Of a DNA stretch of 64,000 bases, positions 47,687-58,525 are shown piece by piece. The stretch spans positions 1 through 64,000 of the forward strand of contig NZ_FOOF01000019.1 of assembly GCF_900113115.1 (NCBI RefSeq), in the 5' to 3' direction. The notes under the pieces are model-generated. The model made no database searches. It saw only the letters and a program-made list of their open reading frames with translations, and was not told where the DNA came from. The translations under genes and the position numbers were made by a program. Source of the stretch: Duganella sp. CF458 (GTDB taxonomy: Bacteria; Pseudomonadota; Gammaproteobacteria; Burkholderiales; Burkholderiaceae_D). The stretch's first letter is position 1; the number at the start of each line of letters is the position of its first letter.

Positions 47687-48145
47687 ATGAATAAGAACAC
47701 CTTGACCCGGCTCCTGCTGGCAGCCGCCATGGCGCTGCCGCTGCTGGCACGCGCGGAGGAAGCCATGCCGACGGAGGGGGATCGCCCGCACATGGCAGGC
47801 CCGCGCGGCCATTTCAGCCCGCACGGCTTGCCATTCCTGCACGGCCTGGAGCTGTCGGAAAGCCAGGAGGACAAGTTGTTCGAGCTGATGCACAACCAGG
47901 CGCCATACCTGCGCGAACAGGAGCGCGCCCACGAGAAGGCAATGCGCGCCCTGCACGAGATGCGCAATGCCGAGAAGTTCGATGACGCTGCCGCCGCCAG
48001 GCTGGCGCAGGCCGCCGCGCAGGCGCAAGCCAACCTGACGCTGTCCCATATCCGCACGCACCAGAAGGTGCTGGCCCTTTTGACCCCGGAGCAGCGTGCC
48101 CAAATCTCTTCCCGTCAACAGCGAGGCGGCTTCAATGAACGTTAA
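47687..48145 (+). CDS. Spy/CpxP-family periplasmic stress protein
   Basis: Spy/CpxP proteins are small helical periplasmic chaperones or Cpx inhibitors. The 152-residue product starts at ATG 47687 (MNKNTLTRLLLAAAMALPLLARA, signal peptide) behind TGGAGA. The mature part has the LTxxQ-like helices: LPFLHGLELSESQEDKLFELMHNQAP, a charged middle helix, and LLTPEQRAQISSRQQRGG. It is divergent from cpxR and overlaps the next gene by 11 bases. It most likely reports or modulates the Cpx-type system. Confidence 0.87.
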   Translation: MNKNTLTRLLLAAAMALPLLARAEEAMPTEGDRPHMAGPRGHFSPHGLPFLHGLELSESQEDKLFELMHNQAPYLREQERAHEKAMRALHEMRNAEKFDDAAAARLAQAAAQAQANLTLSHIRTHQKVLALLTPEQRAQISSRQQRGGFNER

Positions 48146-48668
48146 TCCAGTCGGTTTCGGCGGCTACACCAGCCAGCTCTCCGCCAGCGCTAGCGAGCAG
48201 GCGCGCCAGGCTCCGCCACCACCGCCACCACCGCCACCACCGCCACCCGGTCCGCCGCCGGGCGAGGGCGGCTTTATCAACGCGATCGGCTCGGCACTGG
48301 AGTCGCTTGGCGTCACCGATGTCGCGTCGACCGACAAGGATAGCGCGGCATCCTCGCTGGGCAGCTTCCTGCAGGAGCTCATGACTGCCTTGCACGGGCA
48401 GGGCGAGGCCAATGGCGCTCAAGCGGAAGCTCCCGCAGGCCCCGGCCGCCTGGCGGAGGACTTGCAAAGCCTGCTCTCTTCGCTGCAAAGCGATTCGTCC
48501 GACACCGGCGAAACATCGTCGCTCGAGTCTTCCTTCTCGTCGCTGCTCGCGTCGCTCGGTGCCGACAGCAGCGATTCCAAGTCCAAGCTGGCCGGCTTCC
48601 TGCAAGCGCTGGCGGACAGGCTGCCACAAGCCGGCGGCAGCGGCAACCTGATTAACACCAGTGCGTAA
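48135..48668 (+). CDS. Unknown protein with a 12-proline run
   Basis: The 177-residue product starts at ATG 48135, inside the end of the Spy-like gene, and reads MNVNPVGFGGYTSQLSASAS. A run of 12 prolines near residues 27-38 would stall ribosomes without EF-P. The rest is Ser/Leu-rich with repeated SSLxSSxxSLLxSLGxDSSDS-like segments and a C-terminal helix (LAGFLQALADRL). No signal peptide is visible and I recognise no family. Coupling to the Spy-like gene suggests an envelope stress connection, but this is inference. Its stop overlaps the leader of the dioxygenase-like gene. Confidence 0.7.
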   Translation: MNVNPVGFGGYTSQLSASASEQARQAPPPPPPPPPPPPGPPPGEGGFINAIGSALESLGVTDVASTDKDSAASSLGSFLQELMTALHGQGEANGAQAEAPAGPGRLAEDLQSLLSSLQSDSSDTGETSSLESSFSSLLASLGADSSDSKSKLAGFLQALADRLPQAGGSGNLINTSA

Positions 48669-49561: not shown

Positions 49562-49600
49562 CCGGGGGCGAAGCCGGTTTCGCCCCGGATCCTCCTTTTT
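49562..49600 (+). terminator. Terminator after the Cpx-linked operon
   Basis: CCGGGGGCGAA pairs with TTTCGCCCCGG (one bulged G) around GCCGG, followed by ATCCTCC and five T residues. It separates the stress operon from the sigma-54 cluster. Confidence 0.75.
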
Positions 49601-49655
49601 CGCCAACTCCCGAAACGGCTTTCGCCGCGGCTCGCGCCTGCCCCAGTGGCAGCGC

Positions 49656-49671
49656 TGGCACGCGCCTTGCA
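49656..49671 (+). promoter_or_regulatory. Sigma-54 (RpoN) -24/-12 promoter
   Basis: TGGCACGCGCCTTGCA matches the RpoN consensus TGGCACG-N4-TTGCA at every conserved base, with GG (49657-49658) and GC (49669-49670) ten bases apart as required. The expected start of transcription, about 12 bases downstream, is near 49682, leaving a short leader before ATG 49706. Confidence 0.85.
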
Positions 49672-49705
49672 CTAATTCCTGCATGGCTTAGGCATTGGAG
49701 AAAGC

Positions 49706-50860
49706 ATGGACCGTCTGCTCAGCTATCGACCGGAACTGGAGCTGTCCCCGGCAGCGCCGCAGGCAGCATGGCGCGATGAAAGCCTGCCGCAAGCAGCTGA
49801 TTTGTTGGCGGCACGCCGCGAGGGCCGTTTGCCGGCATGGTTCCGCCATGTGGCGCCGGGCCTGGATAGCGTATTGCCCAAGCTTGCCGACCAGGTGCTC
49901 TCGGCCGGGCCCAGGGCCGCCCGCATGCTCGGCCTGGAGCTCGAGGGGCTGAGCGCTGAAGACCGCGAATTTGAAACGGCGCGCCAGTTCATGCGGTTTG
50001 CCGGACTGGCCGCACGCCGGGCCAGGCAGGCTGCCCGCGGCGATCCGCGCCAGCTCCGGCGCGCTGCGTTGAACATCGCGGCCAGGCAATACGCACCCGG
50101 GCTGTTGCCCACCATCGTATCCATCATGGAACGGCGTCCCGTTCCACCATCAGCAGCATCACATCTAAGGGGGATAATCATGCATGACACCGACCGTACC
50201 ACCCTGGAATTCGGCAACGAAACTTCCTATGAAGGGGAATATGAGTTTGGCGAATCCGAATGGGGCGGTGAAATGGGCCAGCAAGGCATGCTGACCGAAG
50301 CTGAAGAAATGGAATTGGCCAGCGAACTGCTGTCGGTCACCAATGAAGCTGAACTGGAACAATTCCTGGGCGGCTTCCTGAAGAAGGCGGCTTCGTTTGC
50401 CGGCAATGTGATCCGCTCGCCGGTCGGCAAGGCTATTGGCGGCGCGCTCAAAGGCGTGGCCAAGAAGGCGCTGCCGTTGGCCGGTGGCGCCATCGGCGGC
50501 TATTTCGGCGGGCCGCTGGGCGCCAAGATCGGCAGTGGCCTGGCGTCGGCGGCAGGCGGCGCCCTGGGCCTGGAGGCGGAAGGCGAGATGTCGGGCGAGG
50601 ATCGCGAATTCGACGGCGCCCGCACCTTCGTCAAGGTGGCTGCGGATACCGTCAATCGCGCCGCCCAGGCGCGCGGCGGCGACCCACGCCAGATTGCCAT
50701 GCAAGCCGCAACTGCAGCGGTGCGCCAGCATGCGCCGGGCTTGCTGGCCAAGGCCGGCCAGCAGTTCGGGCAGGGCGGCCAGCAGGCCGGAGCCGCCGCG
50801 CGCGGCAACTCGGGGCGCTGGGTGCGCCAGGGCCGCAAGATCGTGATCTACGGGGCCTGA
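49706..50860 (+). CDS. Unknown protein with duplicated C-terminal module and glycine-rich cationic segment; possibly two proteins
   Basis: The open frame gives 384 residues from ATG 49706 (behind GGAGAAAG). Residues about 83-134 (SAEDREFETARQFMRFAG ... AARQYAPGLL) recur at 297-347 (SGEDREFDGARTFVKVAA ... VRQHAPGLL). The second half has an acidic stretch (YEGEYEFGESEWGGE), a helix ELLSVTNEAELEQFLGG (207-223), and a glycine-rich cationic segment GALKGVAKKALPLAGG (246-261) running on to about 288. It ends RWVRQGRKIVIYGA. ATG 50180 (residue 159) has its own strong ribosome-binding site, so the second half may also be made separately. Similar unnamed proteins with the same module order exist in other bacteria as I recall; no function is known to me. 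Confidence 0.7.
   Translation: MDRLLSYRPELELSPAAPQAAWRDESLPQAADLLAARREGRLPAWFRHVAPGLDSVLPKLADQVLSAGPRAARMLGLELEGLSAEDREFETARQFMRFAGLAARRARQAARGDPRQLRRAALNIAARQYAPGLLPTIVSIMERRPVPPSAASHLRGIIMHDTDRTTLEFGNETSYEGEYEFGESEWGGEMGQQGMLTEAEEMELASELLSVTNEAELEQFLGGFLKKAASFAGNVIRSPVGKAIGGALKGVAKKALPLAGGAIGGYFGGPLGAKIGSGLASAAGGALGLEAEGEMSGEDREFDGARTFVKVAADTVNRAAQARGGDPRQIAMQAATAAVRQHAPGLLAKAGQQFGQGGQQAGAAARGNSGRWVRQGRKIVIYGA
50166..50182 (+). promoter_or_regulatory. Internal ribosome-binding site and start within the first cluster gene
   Basis: TAAGGGGGATAATCATG: an AAGGGGG element 7 bases before ATG 50180, in the same frame as the longer gene. The TAA here is in another frame (+1), as if an upstream stop had been lost by a frame change. 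It would start a 226-residue protein. Confidence 0.6.
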
Positions 50861-50865
50861 GACGT

Positions 50866-52125
50866 ATGAGCCCCTACGCCGCCTGGATGCTGGCACAGGA
50901 GGCGCGCGCCTTGCTGGCGCGCCTGGCCCGTGTGCTGCCTTTCGCCCTGATCGAGCCGATGGTGCCTGCTGCGGCCCTCTTGCCGCAAGCGCAGCTTGGG
51001 ATCGAGCGGCAGCTGGTGTCCGGGCGGCGCGAGTTGCGGGCAATGGCGCGCGGTTTCCTGCGCTGGCTGCACGGGCCGCAAGGGCGGCGTGCCAGTGCGG
51101 CGCAGGCGCAGCGCCGCTTTACCTTCCTGCGCATGAAGTTCAATGCCGCCCTGATCCAGTTCGACATGTTCAATGACGTGATCACGCAGCGCAGCGAGCA
51201 CCGCAACGGGGTCTGGCTGGCGGGACTCGATGTGGCATCGGCCGACGCCCTGGCGCTGCGCGGCGGCTACTACAAGGCGCCGCCGGTGATCTGCTACCTG
51301 GACCGCGGGCCAGGGGCGGCGATCCGGCGCGCCCGCACCCGTCTGCCGGGCGGCGGCGACAACCCGGTAGCCATCATCCGTGTGCCGCGCGAGCGAATGG
51401 TCGGCGCCAGCATTGCCTCTTCCCTGTTTCACGAAGTGGGCCACCAGGGCGCGGCGCTGCTGGACCTGGTCAATTCGCTACGTCCGGTGCTGCAATCGCT
51501 GCAGACCGGCGCCACGGGTCCGGCGCCCGTCTGGCAGCTGTGGGAGCGCTGGATCTCGGAAATCGTTGCCGATTTCTGGTCGCTGGCCAGGGTCGGCGTG
51601 GCGGCGACCCACGGCCTGATCGGCGTGGTCAGCCTGCCGCGCATCTTCGTGTTCCGCCTCAACACCGATGATCCGCACCCGGTGCCGTGGATCCGGGTGC
51701 TGTTGAGTTGCGCGATGGGCGAACGCCTTTTCCCGCATCCGCAGTGGCAGCGCATGGCGCGCCTGTGGGAATCGTACTATCCGCTCGAAGGCTTGCCGCA
51801 AGCGGACCGGCAACTGCTGGTGCAGCTGCGCGCTTCGATGCCTGCACTGGCCGGCCTGCTGGCCAACCATCGGCCGGCCTTGCTGCGCGGGGCTTCGCTG
51901 CCGCAGGCCTTGCAGGTGGCGCAGCGCCAGCCGGCCTACCTGGCCCTGCTGTTTCGCCTGTGGCAGCGCAAGCCGCAAGGCATGTACCGGTCTTCGCCGG
52001 TGCTGGTGTTCGCGGTGATCGGCCAGGCGCGCGCGGACGGCATCCTGAGCCCGGAACACGAAAGCATCCTGCTGGCGCGCCTGCTGACGCACTGGGCGCT
52101 TCGCAATACCTTGACTGACCTTTGA
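50866..52125 (+). CDS. Putative zinc metallopeptidase (HEVGH), unknown family
   Basis: The 419-residue product has one HExxH motif, HEVGH at residues 189-193, in SLFHEVGHQGAALLDLVNSL. SEIVADFWSLARVG follows about 40 residues later; its Glu (232) would be the third zinc ligand and its Asp (236) completes the ExxxD form seen in gluzincins. No signal peptide is present; the N-terminal 60 residues are helical and Ala/Leu/Arg-rich. The gene starts five bases after the previous stop. A role in processing or releasing the glycine-rich module of neighbouring products would make sense (inference). Confidence 0.72.
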   Translation: MSPYAAWMLAQEARALLARLARVLPFALIEPMVPAAALLPQAQLGIERQLVSGRRELRAMARGFLRWLHGPQGRRASAAQAQRRFTFLRMKFNAALIQFDMFNDVITQRSEHRNGVWLAGLDVASADALALRGGYYKAPPVICYLDRGPGAAIRRARTRLPGGGDNPVAIIRVPRERMVGASIASSLFHEVGHQGAALLDLVNSLRPVLQSLQTGATGPAPVWQLWERWISEIVADFWSLARVGVAATHGLIGVVSLPRIFVFRLNTDDPHPVPWIRVLLSCAMGERLFPHPQWQRMARLWESYYPLEGLPQADRQLLVQLRASMPALAGLLANHRPALLRGASLPQALQVAQRQPAYLALLFRLWQRKPQGMYRSSPVLVFAVIGQARADGILSPEHESILLARLLTHWALRNTLTDL

Positions 52126-52138
52126 GGAGAGCTCCATC

Positions 52139-54313
52139 ATGGCAAAGAACGTAACGCAGGCGAAACCCGGCGGCGGGCATGGCCGGATCGACGTGCATGT
52201 GCGGGCAATGACGCCGGCCAACGGCGCCGTTCCGGTTGTGCATGCAAAACTCAACCTGTACAAGCTGACGCAGGGTGAAGTCGATGCATTGAAAGCCGGC
52301 AATCGGATCGAGGGCCAGAGGGCGGCTGTCGATGCCAACCCGGCATGGATGCTGGTCGCCCGCACGCACACCGGGCCCGCCGGCGATGCCCAGTTCGCGG
52401 GGTTGGAGAACGGCTTCTACATCGTGCTGTACATGAATGTCAGCCCGTTCGACAAGAACATGTTCAGGGGCCGCCTGATCGGCATCAGCGATGGCGACAT
52501 GCGCGGGGAGTGTGCCTACCAGCTGGACACCAAATTCCGGCTGGAGACCGAGTTCTACGCCAACGGCGAAAAGCTGTCGCGGCTGCACGGCCTGGTGGGC
52601 GACCACGCCTGGGTAACGGTCAAGCACGACGCAAACGAAAAGAACCCGATGCCGGAAATGTACTACGTGCCGGAAGCGCCCTTGCAAAGCCAGGGCACGG
52701 ACGGGGTCGAGTCGAGCGCGCGGCTGAACTCAGTCGGTAGCACGGAGGTGGCGGTGGGCGTGTACATGCGCGCCTATGACGACACCGGTGCGGTCGATCC
52801 GGACGACGCGGCCCATTACCGCAACGCCAGGCAGGTGATTGTCGATGAATCCAGTCCGCTGCAGGTGGCAGGAAAAATCACCACCCAGGCCTCGCGCACC
52901 GAGGCTGAATGGCGTCCCGTCATCGCCCATTGGACCTTGATCAGGAACAGCGCCGAGGCGCTTTCCTTCAACAACTACCAGCTCTTCGTGGACCACCTGT
53001 TCTGCCACAACGCCGGCGGCGTGGTGCCCGACTTCGAGCGCGAGCGCTTCCACGACAAGGAGCGCGCCTTCCGTTCGCTGGAGAAGCGGCGCGCCTTGCC
53101 GTTCAACGACTCCGATTCCTACCGCGTGCTGAAGGCCGCGACCGAAGCCTTCGTCATGGTCAATTGCGGCGTGTTGCGCACGCCGTATGCCTTCCGTGGC
53201 CAGGACGATGCCGAATACCTGGACCGGCGCGACCTGCCCGACGACCGCAAGCTGGAAGAAGAGCTGGTCAAGCGCTACCTTTCTTCGCTCGACCCGAAGA
53301 CCAAGATCCTGCCGTACCTGGCCCTGATCCGCAGCAAGCTGCCCGATGTGCGCATCCACATGGGTCACCAGGAGGAGCATGAAGCCGAATTGTGCGCTGG
53401 TTTCATCCGCGAGCGCCTGGTCAACCCCTGCATGATGGAGTTGATCTGGGCCTACTGGCAGGAGGAGGGCATGCTGGTGCAGACCATGAATGCCATTACG
53501 CGCCGCTTCCAGAACGTACGCTCGCCCGGCCACGGCAGCGGCCCCGATCCGCTGGCCAATATGGAAATCGACATGCTGCGGCCCTTGAACAACCTGTTGT
53601 GGGGCTATGTGCAGGACGAACAGCACCGGCTGAGCGTGGTGCGCCGCAACTACGAGTACGACCACCACTATGGCATCCACCTGGACGGCAAGGCGGTGCG
53701 CGATTTCCGGCCGGCCGACAGCCGCTCCAAATTCATCGAGGCCTTCCACAACCTGCTGCGCCAACTGATGCCGTTCTTCCGGCAGGACGACGATACCACG
53801 GTCAAGGCCGACGCTTTCCCGATCCTCAATGCGCTGAAGGAAGTGCACCTTATCCTGTCGCAGGGGGCGCATAACCAGTTCGGCGACCTGCCGTCCACCG
53901 CGCGCATTGAAATGCTGATGCAGCAATGGATGCTGGCGCGGCCCGAATTCCGCGAATTCCTGCCCACCCGCCTGATGGTGGCGCACCCGGAACCGTGGAT
54001 GGACCGGGTCGATGCGATGAAGAAGGTGCAGGGCTGGAGCGACACCAGCATCGCCCACTTCCGCGACCTGGCCATGTTCGGCGAGCAGTTGCTGCTGTCG
54101 ATTCGCTACAGCCACTGGAGCGAGGTGTACGACCCGACCGAGGCCTTTGCCTGGGCGCGCTTCTGGCGTCCGCAGGCGCAAGGCTATATGCACGCTTACC
54201 GGGCCGTCACGGGCGTCGACCTGACGGCGGAGACCGCGAATCCGAAACTGGAGTCCACCATGCCGTCGGTGCTGCTGCGGCAGCGGCTGGAGGCCATGCC
54301 GCGGACCGCGTGA
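52139..54313 (+). CDS. Large conserved protein of unknown function
   Basis: The 724-residue product starts behind GAGGAGAG. The first 110 residues (GRIDVHVRAMTPANGAVPVVHAKL, FAGLENGFYIVLYMNVSPF) look like a beta-sandwich of the carboxypeptidase-regulatory or prealbumin-like kind. The rest is mixed and rich in His, Trp, Asp and Arg. It includes HQEEHEAELCAGFIRERLVNPCMMELIWAYW, DEQHRLSVVRRNYEYDHHYGIHLDGK, LPTRLMVAHPEPWMDRVD and FAWARFWRPQAQGYMHAYRAVTGVDL. I recognise no catalytic family. No signal peptide or membrane helix is visible. It sits 13 bases after the metallopeptidase gene and 7 before the PLP-enzyme gene. Confidence 0.72.
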   Translation: MAKNVTQAKPGGGHGRIDVHVRAMTPANGAVPVVHAKLNLYKLTQGEVDALKAGNRIEGQRAAVDANPAWMLVARTHTGPAGDAQFAGLENGFYIVLYMNVSPFDKNMFRGRLIGISDGDMRGECAYQLDTKFRLETEFYANGEKLSRLHGLVGDHAWVTVKHDANEKNPMPEMYYVPEAPLQSQGTDGVESSARLNSVGSTEVAVGVYMRAYDDTGAVDPDDAAHYRNARQVIVDESSPLQVAGKITTQASRTEAEWRPVIAHWTLIRNSAEALSFNNYQLFVDHLFCHNAGGVVPDFERERFHDKERAFRSLEKRRALPFNDSDSYRVLKAATEAFVMVNCGVLRTPYAFRGQDDAEYLDRRDLPDDRKLEEELVKRYLSSLDPKTKILPYLALIRSKLPDVRIHMGHQEEHEAELCAGFIRERLVNPCMMELIWAYWQEEGMLVQTMNAITRRFQNVRSPGHGSGPDPLANMEIDMLRPLNNLLWGYVQDEQHRLSVVRRNYEYDHHYGIHLDGKAVRDFRPADSRSKFIEAFHNLLRQLMPFFRQDDDTTVKADAFPILNALKEVHLILSQGAHNQFGDLPSTARIEMLMQQWMLARPEFREFLPTRLMVAHPEPWMDRVDAMKKVQGWSDTSIAHFRDLAMFGEQLLLSIRYSHWSEVYDPTEAFAWARFWRPQAQGYMHAYRAVTGVDLTAETANPKLESTMPSVLLRQRLEAMPRTA

Positions 54314-54320
54314 GGCGCTG

Positions 54321-55358
54321 GTGCACGCTGACTTCACCAGCGCCCTCTACCTGGGCATGCGGCATCCTGCGCCGTCGCTGCCGGCCTGGGATGAGCTGAC
54401 GCTGGGGAAGCCGGCGGCATTGGAACCGGTGCCCGGCGAGCCGGAACTTGGCGCCGCCCTCGCGCGCCTGATGGATTGCGAAGCCGCTTGCCTGCTGCCT
54501 TCCAGCCTGCACCTGTTCTGGGATCTATTCGGATGGCTGGCATCGGCGCGGGTGTCGCTGCTGGTCGACAGCGCCGCCTACCCGGTGGCGCGCTGGGGTG
54601 CTGAACGCGCCAGGTCGCAAGGCGTTCCTTTGCAGTGCTTCAGCCATGGTAGTGCCGCCCAGGCAGCGTCGTTGGCGCGGCGCTGGAGGGAGGCAGGGCG
54701 CAGGCCGGTAATCCTGTCGGATGGCTATACGCCCGGAGATGCCGCGGCACCGCCGCTGGCCTCCTACGCCGACATCGCCGATGCCAACGGCGGCTTGCTT
54801 CTGTTGGATGATACACAGGCGCTCGGCGTACTGGGCGTGGATGGCGGCGGATCAGTGGCGGAACATGGGCTTGGCGGTGCGCCGATCCTGCTGGGCGCAT
54901 CGCTGGCAAAGGGATTCGGGGCTCCGCTCGCGGTGCTGGCCGGGCCGCGCAAGATGTTGGGCAGCTTCATCGCGGCCAGCGCAACGCGGGTGCATTGCAG
55001 TCCGCCCTCGGTGGTGGCGATAGCGGCAGGCCGCTGCGCGCTCGAAGCCAATCGCCGGATGGGCCGGATGCTGCGCGGCCGCTTGCGGGAACGGATAGCG
55101 CAACTGCAGGCGGTGCTGGCCGGGCGTGGGATAGGGTGCCTGGGGGGGGAATTCCCCGTGCAGCGCATCGTGCTGCCGCCTTCATGCGATGGCGAGGCCT
55201 TAAGGCGCGAATTGTCCCTGGCAGGGATAGAAGTGCTGTTGCAGGGAACACCGGCAAGGCAAATCCTGACCATGCTGCTGCGGGCTGACCACAGCCCGCA
55301 GCAGATTGCCTATGCCGCCCATTCAATCGGACAACTGATGGAGGTGCTGCATGTTTGA
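54321..55358 (+). CDS. PLP-dependent alpha-oxoamine synthase/aminotransferase-like enzyme
   Basis: The 345-residue product (GTG start at 54321) belongs to PLP fold type I, nearest to the alpha-oxoamine synthases (8-amino-7-oxononanoate synthase, glycine C-acetyltransferase). It has LLLLDDTQALGVLGVDG with the cofactor-binding Asp and LLGASLAKGFGAPLAVLAGP with the Schiff-base lysine (197). The N-terminus is about 40 residues shorter than BioF. The 3' end overlaps the next gene by eight bases. No biotin gene is near, so it probably makes an aminoketone or modifies a product of this cluster. The true substrate is unknown. Confidence 0.8.
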   Translation: MHADFTSALYLGMRHPAPSLPAWDELTLGKPAALEPVPGEPELGAALARLMDCEAACLLPSSLHLFWDLFGWLASARVSLLVDSAAYPVARWGAERARSQGVPLQCFSHGSAAQAASLARRWREAGRRPVILSDGYTPGDAAAPPLASYADIADANGGLLLLDDTQALGVLGVDGGGSVAEHGLGGAPILLGASLAKGFGAPLAVLAGPRKMLGSFIAASATRVHCSPPSVVAIAAGRCALEANRRMGRMLRGRLRERIAQLQAVLAGRGIGCLGGEFPVQRIVLPPSCDGEALRRELSLAGIEVLLQGTPARQILTMLLRADHSPQQIAYAAHSIGQLMEVLHV

Positions 55359-56457
55359 GACGATGGAGTTCGAATGGCGGCCCAAAGGCGGCCGCGCAAT
55401 GGGCCGGCCGCGAGGCCGTCCCGCTCGCAAACCTCGCCCCGCGCCTGTGTATGGCGGCGGCTGGCCTTACCGCATGCCGGTGTTCGAGCCGCTGCCGCTG
55501 CTCGAACCGCCCGCCAGCGACGAACCAGGCCCGGATGAAGGTGACCGGGATGGCGACAGCGAGCTGCCACCGACCATCGCCCAGGCCGTCGGGCGGATGC
55601 CAGCCGCCTTGCAGCCAGCCTATGTTCCGGTCACCTCGCTTGACCGGGCACCGGGCGATGCACGCACGCAGGGGCCAGGGTTGTACTACCTGGAATTCAC
55701 GGTCAACGGCCGGCGCCGCGGTTATAGCGGCCAGGCCGGGCATATGGGACAGCGCCTGGCGCAGCACCGTATCTGCGCGGGGATGATGGGCATCCGGCCC
55801 GCCGACGTCAGCGTCTACGTTGCCGCCAACCTGGCCGATGGAGCCGACCGCCGGCGGCGCGAACGGACCTTGCACGATACGATGTTCAGGCATCACCAGG
55901 GTGTGCTGACCAACCAGCGGCGCGAACTGGAACTCGCGTTGCTGGGCGAGGAACATGCAGCCCCTTGCGGTTGCAAGCGCTGCCGGCACGGCCCGTTCAG
56001 CTCCGAGCAGGAAATGGAACTGGCAATGGAGCTGCTGGGCGTGCAAAGCGAAGAGGAGCTTGAGCAATTCCTGGGCAAGATGTTCAAAGGCGTCTGGAAG
56101 GGCATCAAGAAGGTCGCCAAGCCGCTGGGCGGCATCCTGAAGGGAATTGCCAAGAAGGCCCTGCCGTTCGTCGGCGGCGCGTTGGGATCGTTTATCCCGA
56201 TTCCCGGTGTGGGTACGGCGTTGGGCCGTGCGCTGGGCGGAGCGCTAAGCAATGCGCTGGAGATGGAAATGCGGGAAATGCGGGAAATGCAGGAGATGCA
56301 GGAAGTGGACCGCGAATTGGAAGTCGCGCGTCGCTTCGTGCGCATTGCCGGCAGCGCTGCGCAGGCGGCCGGCGACAGCGATGCCAGCCCGCAAGCGGTG
56401 CGGCGTGCCGTGCTGGAAGCCTTGCGAACCCATGCCCCGCACTTCGGCAAGTCATGA
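55351..56457 (+). CDS. GIY-YIG-like domain protein with glycine-rich cationic module
   Basis: The 368-residue product starts at ATG 55351 within the preceding gene's end. Residues about 108-190 look like a GIY-YIG nuclease core: GLYYLEFTVNG (110-120), RGYSGQAGHMGQRLAQHR (123-140), a Glu in RRRERTLHD (171) and an Asn in GVLTNQRRE (188). Next come a cysteine cluster CGCKRC (206-211), the helix MELLGVQSEEELEQFLG (226-242), and a strongly cationic segment KGVWKGIKKVAKPLGGILKG (246-265) running into AKKALPFVGGALG. A charged Met/Glu stretch and a final module (DRELEVARRFVRIA ... THAPHF) match the first cluster gene. The N-terminus is Pro/Arg-rich. Confidence 0.75.
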   Translation: MFETMEFEWRPKGGRAMGRPRGRPARKPRPAPVYGGGWPYRMPVFEPLPLLEPPASDEPGPDEGDRDGDSELPPTIAQAVGRMPAALQPAYVPVTSLDRAPGDARTQGPGLYYLEFTVNGRRRGYSGQAGHMGQRLAQHRICAGMMGIRPADVSVYVAANLADGADRRRRERTLHDTMFRHHQGVLTNQRRELELALLGEEHAAPCGCKRCRHGPFSSEQEMELAMELLGVQSEEELEQFLGKMFKGVWKGIKKVAKPLGGILKGIAKKALPFVGGALGSFIPIPGVGTALGRALGGALSNALEMEMREMREMQEMQEVDRELEVARRFVRIAGSAAQAAGDSDASPQAVRRAVLEALRTHAPHFGKS

Positions 56458-57191
56458 TCATCGACTGCCACTGTCATGCCGGTCCGGGCGACGGCCTGAC
56501 CGGCCCTTGGGACAGCAACGCCGCGCTGGGCCGCTATGCCCGGCGCGCGCGTGACGCCGGCATTGACCGTACCGTCCTGCTGGCAGCCTTCCATTCCGAC
56601 TACGGGGCTGCCAACGCGGGCGTGGCGCGGCTGGTGGCGGCCGAACCCGAACGCTACCTGGCCTTCGCCTTCGTGCACGCCAGGCGCGATGCGGGCCGGA
56701 TCGCTGCGATGGTGCGGACCGCCGTGGAGGAGTATGGCTTCGTCGGCATCAAGCTGCACCGGCACGACGCGCCGATCACCGGCGAGGTGTGTGAAGTCGC
56801 GCGGCACTTCGGGCTGCCGGTGTTGTACGACCCAGTCGGCCTGACTTCGGTGGCGGAACTGTTGGCTGGGCAATATCCGGACGTGAATTTCATCCTGCCC
56901 CACCTGGGCAGCTTTGCCGACGACTGGTCTGCGCAACTGGCCCTGATCGACCAACTGGCGCGGCACCGGAACATCTACACCGACAGCGCCGGCGTGCGCC
57001 GCTTCGACCTGCTGGAGCAGGCGATCCGCCGCGCCGGCGCGCATAAGGTCCTGTTCGGCAGCGACGGGCCGTGGTTGCATCCGGGCGTGGAACTGGAGAA
57101 GATTCGTTTGCTGCGCCTGGGGGCAGGCGACGAGGGGCTGGTCCTGGGCGGTAACCTGCTGCGGCTGATTGGTGGAGCTGGGTGGGGCTAG
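56454..57191 (+). CDS. Amidohydrolase-2-family metal-dependent hydrolase
   Basis: The 245-residue TIM-barrel protein (PF04909-like) has MIIDCHCHAGPG with the HxH ligands, GFVGIKLHRHD, NFILPHLGSF with a ligand His, and VLFGSDGPWLHPG with the catalytic Asp. Relatives include decarboxylases such as ACMS decarboxylase and lactone or amide hydrolases. The start overlaps the stop of the GIY-YIG-like gene (ATGA). It is the last gene of the plus-strand cluster, and its stop overlaps the stop of the convergent activator gene. The substrate is unknown. Confidence 0.85.
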   Translation: MIIDCHCHAGPGDGLTGPWDSNAALGRYARRARDAGIDRTVLLAAFHSDYGAANAGVARLVAAEPERYLAFAFVHARRDAGRIAAMVRTAVEEYGFVGIKLHRHDAPITGEVCEVARHFGLPVLYDPVGLTSVAELLAGQYPDVNFILPHLGSFADDWSAQLALIDQLARHRNIYTDSAGVRRFDLLEQAIRRAGAHKVLFGSDGPWLHPGVELEKIRLLRLGAGDEGLVLGGNLLRLIGGAGWG

Positions 57192-58525
57192 GCGGGCGCG
57201 GTGCGGGCCTTGCGGCGCAGTTGCAGCGTGCGGTCGGTCACCCCGAGGCGCAGGGCGGCGCGCTGGTTGTTGTCGCCCTCCTGTTGCAGCACAAGCTGGA
57301 TGGCCGTGTCGGTGGCGGCCTGGCCGATGCGCGCCAGGTTGACGCCAAGGTCCACTGCGCGCCCGATGGCGTTGATAAAGGCCGCATCGGGCCAGCTGGC
57401 GCCGCCGCCAGCCGGCCGCTCTTCCGGCGGCACATCGCCGATGGTGAGCGGCCCCGGGCCGATATGCCGGTGCCAGATGCGGGCCACGGTCTGCCGCAGG
57501 TCGCGCACATTGCCGGGATAGCAGCGCGTCAGCAGGTATTGGCGAACGGCCGGATCGAGTTCGACCTCCTGTCCGGCCAGTTGGCGCAGGAAGTGCTGCA
57601 CCAGCGGCAGGATATCGCCTTGCCGTTCCCGCAGCGGCGGCGTGCGGCAGCGCCAGGCCGCGATGCGGTAATACAGGTCGGCGCGGAAGGCACCGCGCTG
57701 CACTTCGGCCTCCAGATCGCGATTGGTAGCGCACACCAGGCGAAAGCGCGTCGGATGCCAGTCATTGCTGCCAACGCGGCGATATTGCTGCTCCTGGATC
57801 ACGCGCAAGAGCTGCGCCTGCAGCGGCAGCGGCAGCTCGCCCACTTCGTCGAGAAACAGCACGCCGCCGTTGGCCGCGGCAAACGCGCCGTCGCGTGCGC
57901 TGTAAGCACCGGTGAAAGCGCCGCGTTCATGGCCGAACAATTCACTGCCCGCCAGCTCCGGCGACAGCGTGGTGCAATCGACGACAGTGAGCGGCCCGGA
58001 CCCGCCATGCAGGCGATGGATGGCCTGCGCCAGCAAGTCCTTGCCGGTGCCGGTTTCGCCGGTGATCAGGACCGGGGAATCGGTGAAGGCCGCCACCTCG
58101 ACCAGGCTTTGCAGCATGCAGCGCCACGCGGCACTTTGCCCGACCAGGCAAGCGCGTATGCGTTCGGAAGCCATGAGTTGCGCGACATCGTGCCAGCGCT
58201 CCAGGCGCGCCAGCACCTGCGGCAGGATTGCCTCGCCATTGCGCCACAAGAGCAGGTCGGATGCGCCGGCCGCAAGAACTTCCCACATGGCGTCGGCCGC
58301 CAGTTCCGCTGGTTCGCAACAGATGGCCAGCAATTGCCGGGCGCTTGCCGCTCGCAGGTTGGCGGCCAGTTCGCCGTCCCATTGATTGAATAGGAAGATG
58401 GAAGCATCGCTTTCCTGCGGTGCTTCGATGAGGGAGACGCCGGCCTCGGACAGCTCGGCCCGCAGTTTGCGGCTGGCATTGGCCGGAGGCTCCCCGGCCG
58501 CGAGAATGCAAGCTGAAAGCACCAT
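57188..58525 (-). CDS. Sigma-54-dependent transcriptional activator
   Basis: The 445-residue product has an N-terminal domain (1-115) shaped like a receiver but without the phospho-acceptor Asp in the expected place, so it may bind a ligand or another protein instead. The AAA+ domain has Walker A GETGTGK (156-162), the sigma-54 contact loop GAFTGA (202-207), Walker B GGVLFLDE (220-227), LVCATNRDLE, and the arginine-finger region FRADLYYRI. A Fis-type helix-turn-helix closes it (NQRAALRLGVTDRTLQLRRK). The ATG at 58525 follows GGAGGG. It lies convergent to the cluster that begins with a sigma-54 promoter and is its likely activator. Confidence 0.9.
   Translation of the reverse strand: MVLSACILAAGEPPANASRKLRAELSEAGVSLIEAPQESDASIFLFNQWDGELAANLRAASARQLLAICCEPAELAADAMWEVLAAGASDLLLWRNGEAILPQVLARLERWHDVAQLMASERIRACLVGQSAAWRCMLQSLVEVAAFTDSPVLITGETGTGKDLLAQAIHRLHGGSGPLTVVDCTTLSPELAGSELFGHERGAFTGAYSARDGAFAAANGGVLFLDEVGELPLPLQAQLLRVIQEQQYRRVGSNDWHPTRFRLVCATNRDLEAEVQRGAFRADLYYRIAAWRCRTPPLRERQGDILPLVQHFLRQLAGQEVELDPAVRQYLLTRCYPGNVRDLRQTVARIWHRHIGPGPLTIGDVPPEERPAGGGASWPDAAFINAIGRAVDLGVNLARIGQAATDTAIQLVLQQEGDNNQRAALRLGVTDRTLQLRRKARTAPA

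Follow-up and report, generated by a model that had tools for sequence, protein, structure and literature searches.

A probably sigma-54-controlled gene unit in Duganella sp. CF458 and distant bacteria with a conserved core, exchangeable cargo and a possible role in protein deployment

Operons that depend on the sigma factor RpoN (sigma-54) and carry a dedicated activator gene beside them are represented by the PspF, RtcR and NorR types. Glycine zippers are found in the Cdz system of Caulobacter, where CdzC and CdzD are glycine-zipper proteins that kill by contact (PMC5380434), and in Agrobacterium, where the DNase effector Tde1 depends on a GxxxG zipper to enter target cells (PMC10240207). 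Polymorphic and PVC-type toxins carry varying toxin-type domains, peptidases and OmpA among them, and a notable share of PVC-type systems is without adjacent immunity genes (PMC3482391). The present text concerns a unit of six genes (A to F) and a convergent activator gene (R) at positions 49656 to 58525 of a 64,000-nucleotide stretch of Duganella sp. CF458 (NCBI RefSeq assembly GCF_900113115.1, contig NZ_FOOF01000019.1, positions 1 to 64,000 of the forward strand; henceforth called the window).

Each of these systems is matched by the unit in part. Like Cdz, it has glycine-zipper proteins in one cluster; unlike Cdz (PMC5380434), it combines long acidic-ended modules, an HExGH protein, the proteins C, D and F and a sigma-54 activator with no called transporter. 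Neither of the Cdz-type marks looked for, type I secretion genes and a small immunity protein, was found among the six window genes and R. As in Tde1, GxxxG repeats accompany a nuclease-type domain (window E is GIY-YIG-like plus zipper); Tde1 is, however, a type VI effector with the adaptor Tap1 (PMC10240207), whereas no type VI link was found for the unit, in which the zipper is a conserved module of several proteins. Varying toxin-type domains, and the want of a recognisable immunity gene beside E in the window, recall the polymorphic and PVC-type toxins (PMC3482391), from which the unit is set apart by a constant B-C core, its own RpoN control and the lack of called RHS, PVC-metallopeptidase or contractile parts. 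With the RpoN operons named above, it shares an activator adjoining its target, GAFTGA and upstream sites, and it differs from them in tandem CGAA-N6-TTCG sites, an apparently receiver-like activator N-terminus that has no conserved phosphorylation aspartate, and uncharacterised targets. Term searches of open-licence PMC text returned no description of the gene set, in keeping with a preliminary description of this DNA, made from the sequence alone, which knew of no such system. The unit is marked here as a new kind of system, which experiment could still place near a known kind.

The recurrence of gene set and control region across phyla puts the arrangement beyond chance, and it is close to certain that a genuine, conserved unit under local control is present. 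Its constant part consists of B and C, joined in most loci by D and F, while a substrate-like set is made up of A1, A2, E1, E2 and whatever genes occupy the E position. Such a constant core, together with substrate-like proteins that have their ends in common and with interchangeable wall-cutting, protein-cutting and nuclease-type domains, looks like an effector system. The unit is read, tentatively, as self-contained, mobile as a block and producing effector-type proteins that carry a tag and whose most likely targets are other cells.

Gene layout and control region

The features of the unit in the window are as follows.

49706-50860, + strand: A, open reading frame, fusion of A1 (49706-50179) and A2 (50180-50860)
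50866-52125, + strand: B, open reading frame, 419-residue HEVGH protein
52139-54313, + strand: C, open reading frame, 724 residues
54321-55358, + strand: D, open reading frame with GTG start, alpha-oxoamine-synthase-like protein of pyridoxal-phosphate type
55351-56457, + strand: E, open reading frame, fusion of E1 and E2
56454-57191, + strand: F, open reading frame, Amidohydro_2 protein
57188-58525, - strand: R, open reading frame, sigma-54 activator, convergent to A-F
49656-49671, + strand: RpoN (-24/-12) promoter TGGCACGCGCCTTGCA, 34 bases before the ATG of A
49569-49624, + strand: tandem upstream sites CGAAGCCGGTTTCG (49569-49582) and CGAAACGGCTTTCG (49611-49624), putative R-binding sites

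Gaps of 5 (A/B), 13 (B/C) and 7 (C/D) bases and overlaps of 8 (D/E) and 4 bases (E/F) separate or join the six genes, and F and R overlap tail to tail by 4 bases. The arrangement set out in the preliminary description, i.e., six tightly spaced genes behind an RpoN site with a convergent GAFTGA activator, was confirmed from the open reading frames and the sequence, as were the HEVGH motif in B and the 724 residues of C; the sixth gene, described as an amidohydrolase, matched Amidohydro_2 (Pfam, 1.1e-16). Pfam, at a threshold of 0.1, left A, B, C and E of the window without a match; it called a sigma-54 activator in R and an amidohydrolase in F, and its matches in D were weak and under the cut-offs. 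In the own genome (6.34 Mb, 61 contigs), C was present in a single copy and the glycine-zipper module in A and E only.

The promoter pattern TGGCACGNNNNTTGCW matched seven times in the own genome and its reversed control not at all. Near the start of A, a -24/-12 site with at least 10 of 12 consensus bases was present in 51 of 67 loci, compared with 2.6% of shuffles, and the remaining 16 fell short of that level. Because 38 of 148 control stretches (2.6 kb, same loci) also contained an RpoN-like match of at least 10/12, a lone match is weak evidence, and the weight of the promoter case is carried by position and by the tandem sites. When inverted repeats were enumerated in the 220 bases preceding the promoter, GCGAA-N6-TTCGC came up in 40 of the 61 loci, compared with a mean of 0.0 after shuffling; this repeat is one half of a tandem CGAA-N6-TTCG pair. 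Exact pairs with a spacing of 41-43 bases were present in 64 of 68 loci, 56 pairs being at exactly 42, and elsewhere in these loci a single exact pair within 120 bases occurred, at another spacing; allowing up to one mismatch per site, all 68 loci had the pair. In the window, the two sites lie 42 bp apart start to start and the second begins 45 bp before the -24 element. Across 66 loci, the distance from the start of the second site to the promoter was 44-48 or 55-59 bases in 48 and greater in 18; the step between the two distances is 11 bases, about one helix turn. The pair occurred once in the 6.34-Mb genome, at 49569-49624.

Among loci held out from motif discovery, the exact pair together with a promoter of 11/12 or 12/12 was found in five of the seven with C, one of which (L144) is close kin of L045. 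It was not found in held-out L121 and L145, nor in L141, which is without C; of 320 shuffles in this comparison, none had a pair. L145 (genome G283) and L121 (a Paraburkholderia phymatum plasmid) hold divergent units with no recognised D and no tandem site, and their control region may differ from the tandem-site type.

Among the copies of R with at least 350 residues, all 64 keep Walker A and 61 keep GAFTGA, both being intact in the window copy, and the PspF, RtcR and NorR profiles of NCBIfam scored highly. Among 62 aligned copies, the N-terminus keeps AGAxD, which we read as receiver-like, and shows no conserved phosphorylation aspartate; the C-terminal end is conserved and is read as a putative helix-turn-helix. 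R would bind the tandem sites and seems to have a single target, the tandem site before A. Judged from sequence, the RpoN promoter, the CGAA-N6-TTCG pair and the adjacent activator go with the unit genes. The check proposed earlier, whether RpoN site and activator travel with the genes, thus came out positive with a tandem upstream site in addition, and the proposal of a sigma-54 cluster with its own activator now draws, beyond its original basis, on the promoter, R and the genome-unique tandem site.

Distribution, gain and loss

Within the family, a profile search found C in 40 of 294 genomes (including a doubtful match in G141 at 6e-4, and G009, where C is split over two contigs) and in 10 of 26 listed genomes of the same genus. 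In named genome contigs, C matched 112 stretches, of which the best 80 were kept. The hosts include Duganella, Pseudoduganella, Massilia, Janthinobacterium, Rugamonas, Variovorax, Nitrosomonas, Nitrospira, Methylococcaceae, Microvirga, Paraburkholderia and others, as well as single bins labelled Chloracidobacterium, Bacteroidetes, Anaerolineae and Schekmanbacteria, so that the unit spans Beta-, Gamma- and Alphaproteobacteria, Nitrospira and single bins of other phyla. C also lies on four plasmid records (two of Rhizobium, one of Ensifer, one of Paraburkholderia phymatum); in the two examined, the unit was present and no annotation lay over it.

Loci were selected for having C (81 including the window), and 62 had enough flank for partner counts. 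A2 and B were each found in 61 of these, R in 60, D in 57, F in 55 and E1 in 44. The usual order, with variation, is A1-A2-B-C-D-[cargo]-E-[cargo]-F with convergent R. The result that would have told against a unit, genes not conserved together elsewhere, was thus not obtained; the set recurs across phyla. When 299 Pseudomonadota genomes were sampled, the same three were matched by C and by B, so that the unit is rare and comes as a set; A2 matched strongly in those three and weakly in six more (E 4e-9 to 9e-4). One of these weak A2 matches (L141, 9439-12469, genome G392) lies in a locus that holds a divergent glycine-zipper module (Gly-zipper_Omp 0.0055 in Pfam) and a divergent B (50 bits) one gene apart, with neither C nor a tandem site, and is possibly a reduced or ancestral form.

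The genes flanking the unit are 9.1 kb apart in the window, and about 106 and 188 bases apart in the sister genomes G155 and G210, which have no C. In G283 the same flank genes are 628 bases apart (L153), and the divergent unit (L145) lies on another contig. The right-hand flank gene was found in 58 genomes, with loci given for 30; next to it stood R in 15, the left flank gene in 4 (one of these partial, at 1.4 kb) and neither within 1.5 kb in 11. The unit comes and goes as a block, and its empty site is seen in sister genomes. The window also encodes a 190-residue protein with a long proline run (48096-48668), and like proteins adjoin the left flank gene in L043, L151 and L167.

A quick tree built from 79 sequences of C, several forks of which stayed open, placed two Methylococcaceae bins within Nitrosomonas and four of six Nitrospirota bins beside it. 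Since bins may contain stray contigs, horizontal transfer of the unit is likely rather than proven.

Core proteins, zipper modules and cargo

HExGH was present in all 75 copies of B (HEVGH, residues 189-193, in the window), and E232 and D236 were invariant in an alignment of 34 sequences, the 33 other copies being 52-78% identical to the window copy. These residues make B a candidate zinc metallopeptidase; no peptidase-fold match was obtained. Its predicted model is confident and mostly helical (mean predicted local distance difference test score, pLDDT, 85.7) and gave 487 PDB matches at E up to 10 and none at 0.001; the best, to membrane receptors (E 0.3, template modelling score 0.11), was unconvincing and was rejected. 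C, with 36 other copies 43-61% identical to that of the window, begins with a SpaA/CnaB-like beta part (about residues 15-236). Its model is weak (mean pLDDT 67.7), and the 22 PDB matches at 0.001 were mostly to SpaA-type pilins over this part; Pfam called CarboxypepD_reg in 10 and SpaA in 3 of 37 copies. The C-terminal part, the most conserved half, is mostly helical, was poorly modelled and had no PDB fold match. Searching the PDB by profile at E up to 1 brought a single weak match per protein, at 0.55 for C, 0.59 for B and 0.098 for A2, the last to a tape-measure protein. Weak matches aside, A2, B and the conserved half of C had no family in Pfam, NCBIfam, PADLOC, PHROGs or PDB. A phage origin was dismissed after the C profile gave nine pattern matches and no relative in viral_contigs, and a defence system after PADLOC gave a single weak match, to E (0.0047), on the six window proteins.

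A1 (starting MDRLLSYRPE) and A2 (starting MHDTDRT in the window) are separate genes in many relatives and fused in the window. A2 consists of an acidic N-terminus, a glycine-zipper module and the C-terminal tail GRWVRQGRKIVIYGA; it is kept from MHDIDRT to the last residues GRWxRRGxKIVLxGA among 30 aligned copies, and the window copy has 13 GxxxG compared with 7.2 in shuffles. The tail pattern GRWxRRGxxI matched 95 of 570 genes inside the unit and 1 of 793 outside, the sole outside match being the A2-type protein of L115. E1 starts MFETMEFEW and has a GIY-YIG-like region at about residues 110-192; the sequence CGCKRC (about residues 206-211) marks its join to E2, whose glycine-zipper module follows, and in many relatives E2 begins CxCxxC. 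Of the earlier view of E as GIY-YIG-like plus module, the module stood; GIY-YIG was seen in the window by motif only, as Pfam did not call it there and did so only in relatives, such as the Ensifer copy L120 (25.5 bits, cut-off 22.6). Weak library matches of A to rplT (0.088, NCBIfam) and to a PHROG tape measure (0.0094), and of E to three PHROGs (best 0.0005), were not believed.

The conservation of the A2 tail up to its final residues bears on the preliminary proposal of a peptide or modified product made by a peptidase and tailoring enzymes. There, A2 and E2 would be precursors, B would excise a glycine-zipper peptide or the tail, and D and F would tailor the product. The pairing of a divergent module with a divergent B, without C, in L141 also fits, as does D, in which the lysine motif (SLAKGFG in the window) is kept in 69 of 74 copies. 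Over most of its length, D resembles alpha-oxoamine synthases (BioF, CqsA-type, serine palmitoyltransferase), yet it lies far below the family cut-offs (BioF-like in NCBIfam at 1.5e-13, 50 bits against a cut-off of 426). The 8-amino-7-oxononanoate synthases (AONS) carry DExH, with the histidine of D-x-x-H, a position that D lacks, as DDTQ stands in all 74 copies. The description of D as an AONS-like enzyme therefore held for the likeness and the lysine motif and failed at the family cut-off and at DDTQ. F has D-x-H-x-H, HLG and GSDGP motifs. Of the 62 loci, however, 5 had no D and 7 no F that could be found, and among the seven held-out loci containing C, D was likewise not found in four (L121, L142, L143, L145); module proteins are about 180-260 residues long, some being fused to enzyme domains; the variable part of the cargo is an enzyme domain; and the unit in the window has no transporter. 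The hallmarks of ribosomally synthesized and post-translationally modified peptides (RiPPs) looked for, i.e., a short precursor peptide, a known modifying enzyme and a transporter, were not called among the six window genes. Processing of module proteins by B is possible, but a product pathway as a whole is rather unlikely; with D and F not found in some loci and the E position varied, an effector set fits better than one tailored peptide.

The E position was represented by 121 cargo proteins, in which Pfam called PG_binding_1 (19), Amidase_2 (9), M20 (7), Trypsin_2 (7), GIY-YIG (5, at 0.001), OmpA (5), VanY (3), nitroreductase (3), GNAT (2), and Muramidase, Peptidase_C1 (papain) and NLPC_P60 (1 each). 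Three cargo proteins were compared with PHROGs and all matched endolysin families. The N-termini are often acidic-aromatic (e.g., FETMEFEW, FEALPFEL, FETIPFEI), and the pattern FE.{1,3}[PE]F matched 64 of 151 cargo-position genes and 2 of 674 outside. Polymorphic toxins are marked by varying domains behind a shared N-terminus; here, the acidic-aromatic stretch is short and loose. By a crude rule, a hydrophobic stretch of signal-peptide type was present in 1 of 68 tagged proteins.

Two side observations concern this region. A common stretch, PGxFYKIxYxxGGLL, was seen in cargo of L100 (14600-15985), L089 (14498-15895), L090 (14732-16129) and L118 (14491-14972), joined to a trypsin domain (L100) or to an end without known domain; it recalls a LysM-type wall-binding part, with no Pfam call in L100. 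Three Massilia loci (L055, 15146-18165; L056, 15380-18220; L063, 15982-17775) have an extra gene set between F and R, in L056 an HHPSLA-repeat protein, a 172-residue protein, a nitroreductase-family protein and a GNAT protein; in our reading, this may be a separate RiPP-type cluster inserted in the unit.

Weighing an effector role

The many wall-directed cargo domains would also suit remodelling of the producer's own envelope or its programmed lysis, with holin-like zippers and tagged hydrolases cutting the own wall, or the building of a surface layer. The SpaA-like beta domains of C, usual in surface proteins, the lack of a visible immunity gene in the window and the link between RpoN and control of the bacterial exterior (PMC3162934) point the same way. 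Proteases and GIY-YIG proteins nonetheless share the position with wall hydrolases, and the patchy presence, in 40 of 294 family genomes, tells against a basic envelope task. We regard this alternative as unlikely, although deserving of attention.

A third alternative makes the unit an effector island whose cargo is used by a standard secretion machine encoded elsewhere, either type VI or extracellular contractile. RpoN and its activator Sfa2 control a Pseudomonas type VI system and its toxins (PMC8855297), and VipA (TssB) was present in 39 of 40 unit-bearing genomes tested (the C-positive family genomes without G009 and G141, 38 in number, with G355 and G538 added). VipA was, however, also present in 15 of 18 genomes taken from the listed unit-less ones and absent from unit-bearing G538, so that its distribution is uninformative and the type VI link was discarded. 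No tube, sheath or spike family was called in the window unit. The own genome's only phage-sheath match found lies in an apparent Mu-like prophage (contig C41, 170-204 kb; L123, L124), and an extracellular contractile injection system was likewise set aside. Use of a standard machine is accordingly held improbable.

Several observations weigh against an effector role itself. A Pfam domain was found in only part of the 121 cargo proteins, the N-terminal pattern was picked after the sequences had been seen and was without a match in the held-out cargo of L120 and L146, and the signal-peptide rule is weak, detecting 5 of 21 in a control family. No immunity gene was recognisable by E in the window, where the E/F overlap leaves no gene between, a negative confined to the window since immunity families were not searched for in relatives. 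No secretion apparatus was called among the unit genes; the window copy has no peptidoglycan hydrolase, just the GIY-YIG-like protein uncalled by Pfam; and C, D and F have no obvious killing role, D and F being metabolic in look.

Were the effector-type reading right, B with its HExGH would process the tagged proteins, C would serve as a sorting or assembly factor, the glycine zippers would enter membranes and ease the passage of the enzymatic domains through them, and D and F would attach or take off a small group or shield the producing cell. With more reserve still, the unit may be seen as a new antagonism or protein-deployment system, in which a B-C core sorts and processes acidic-aromatic-tagged proteins, zippers are built-in membrane-crossing parts, cargo is exchanged among lineages and phyla, and one dedicated RpoN switch controls the whole. 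As R seems to have a single target, switching it on or off should reveal the function of the whole unit at once.

The core families A2, B and C are unnamed in the libraries searched, and that Oxalobacteraceae, Nitrosomonas, Nitrospira and methanotroph bins share these parts along with the double control site speaks for a function worth keeping and moving. Should the unit prove to be an effector system, nitrifiers and soil bacteria would have a new route; should it prove to be a product pathway, the chemistry would be new.

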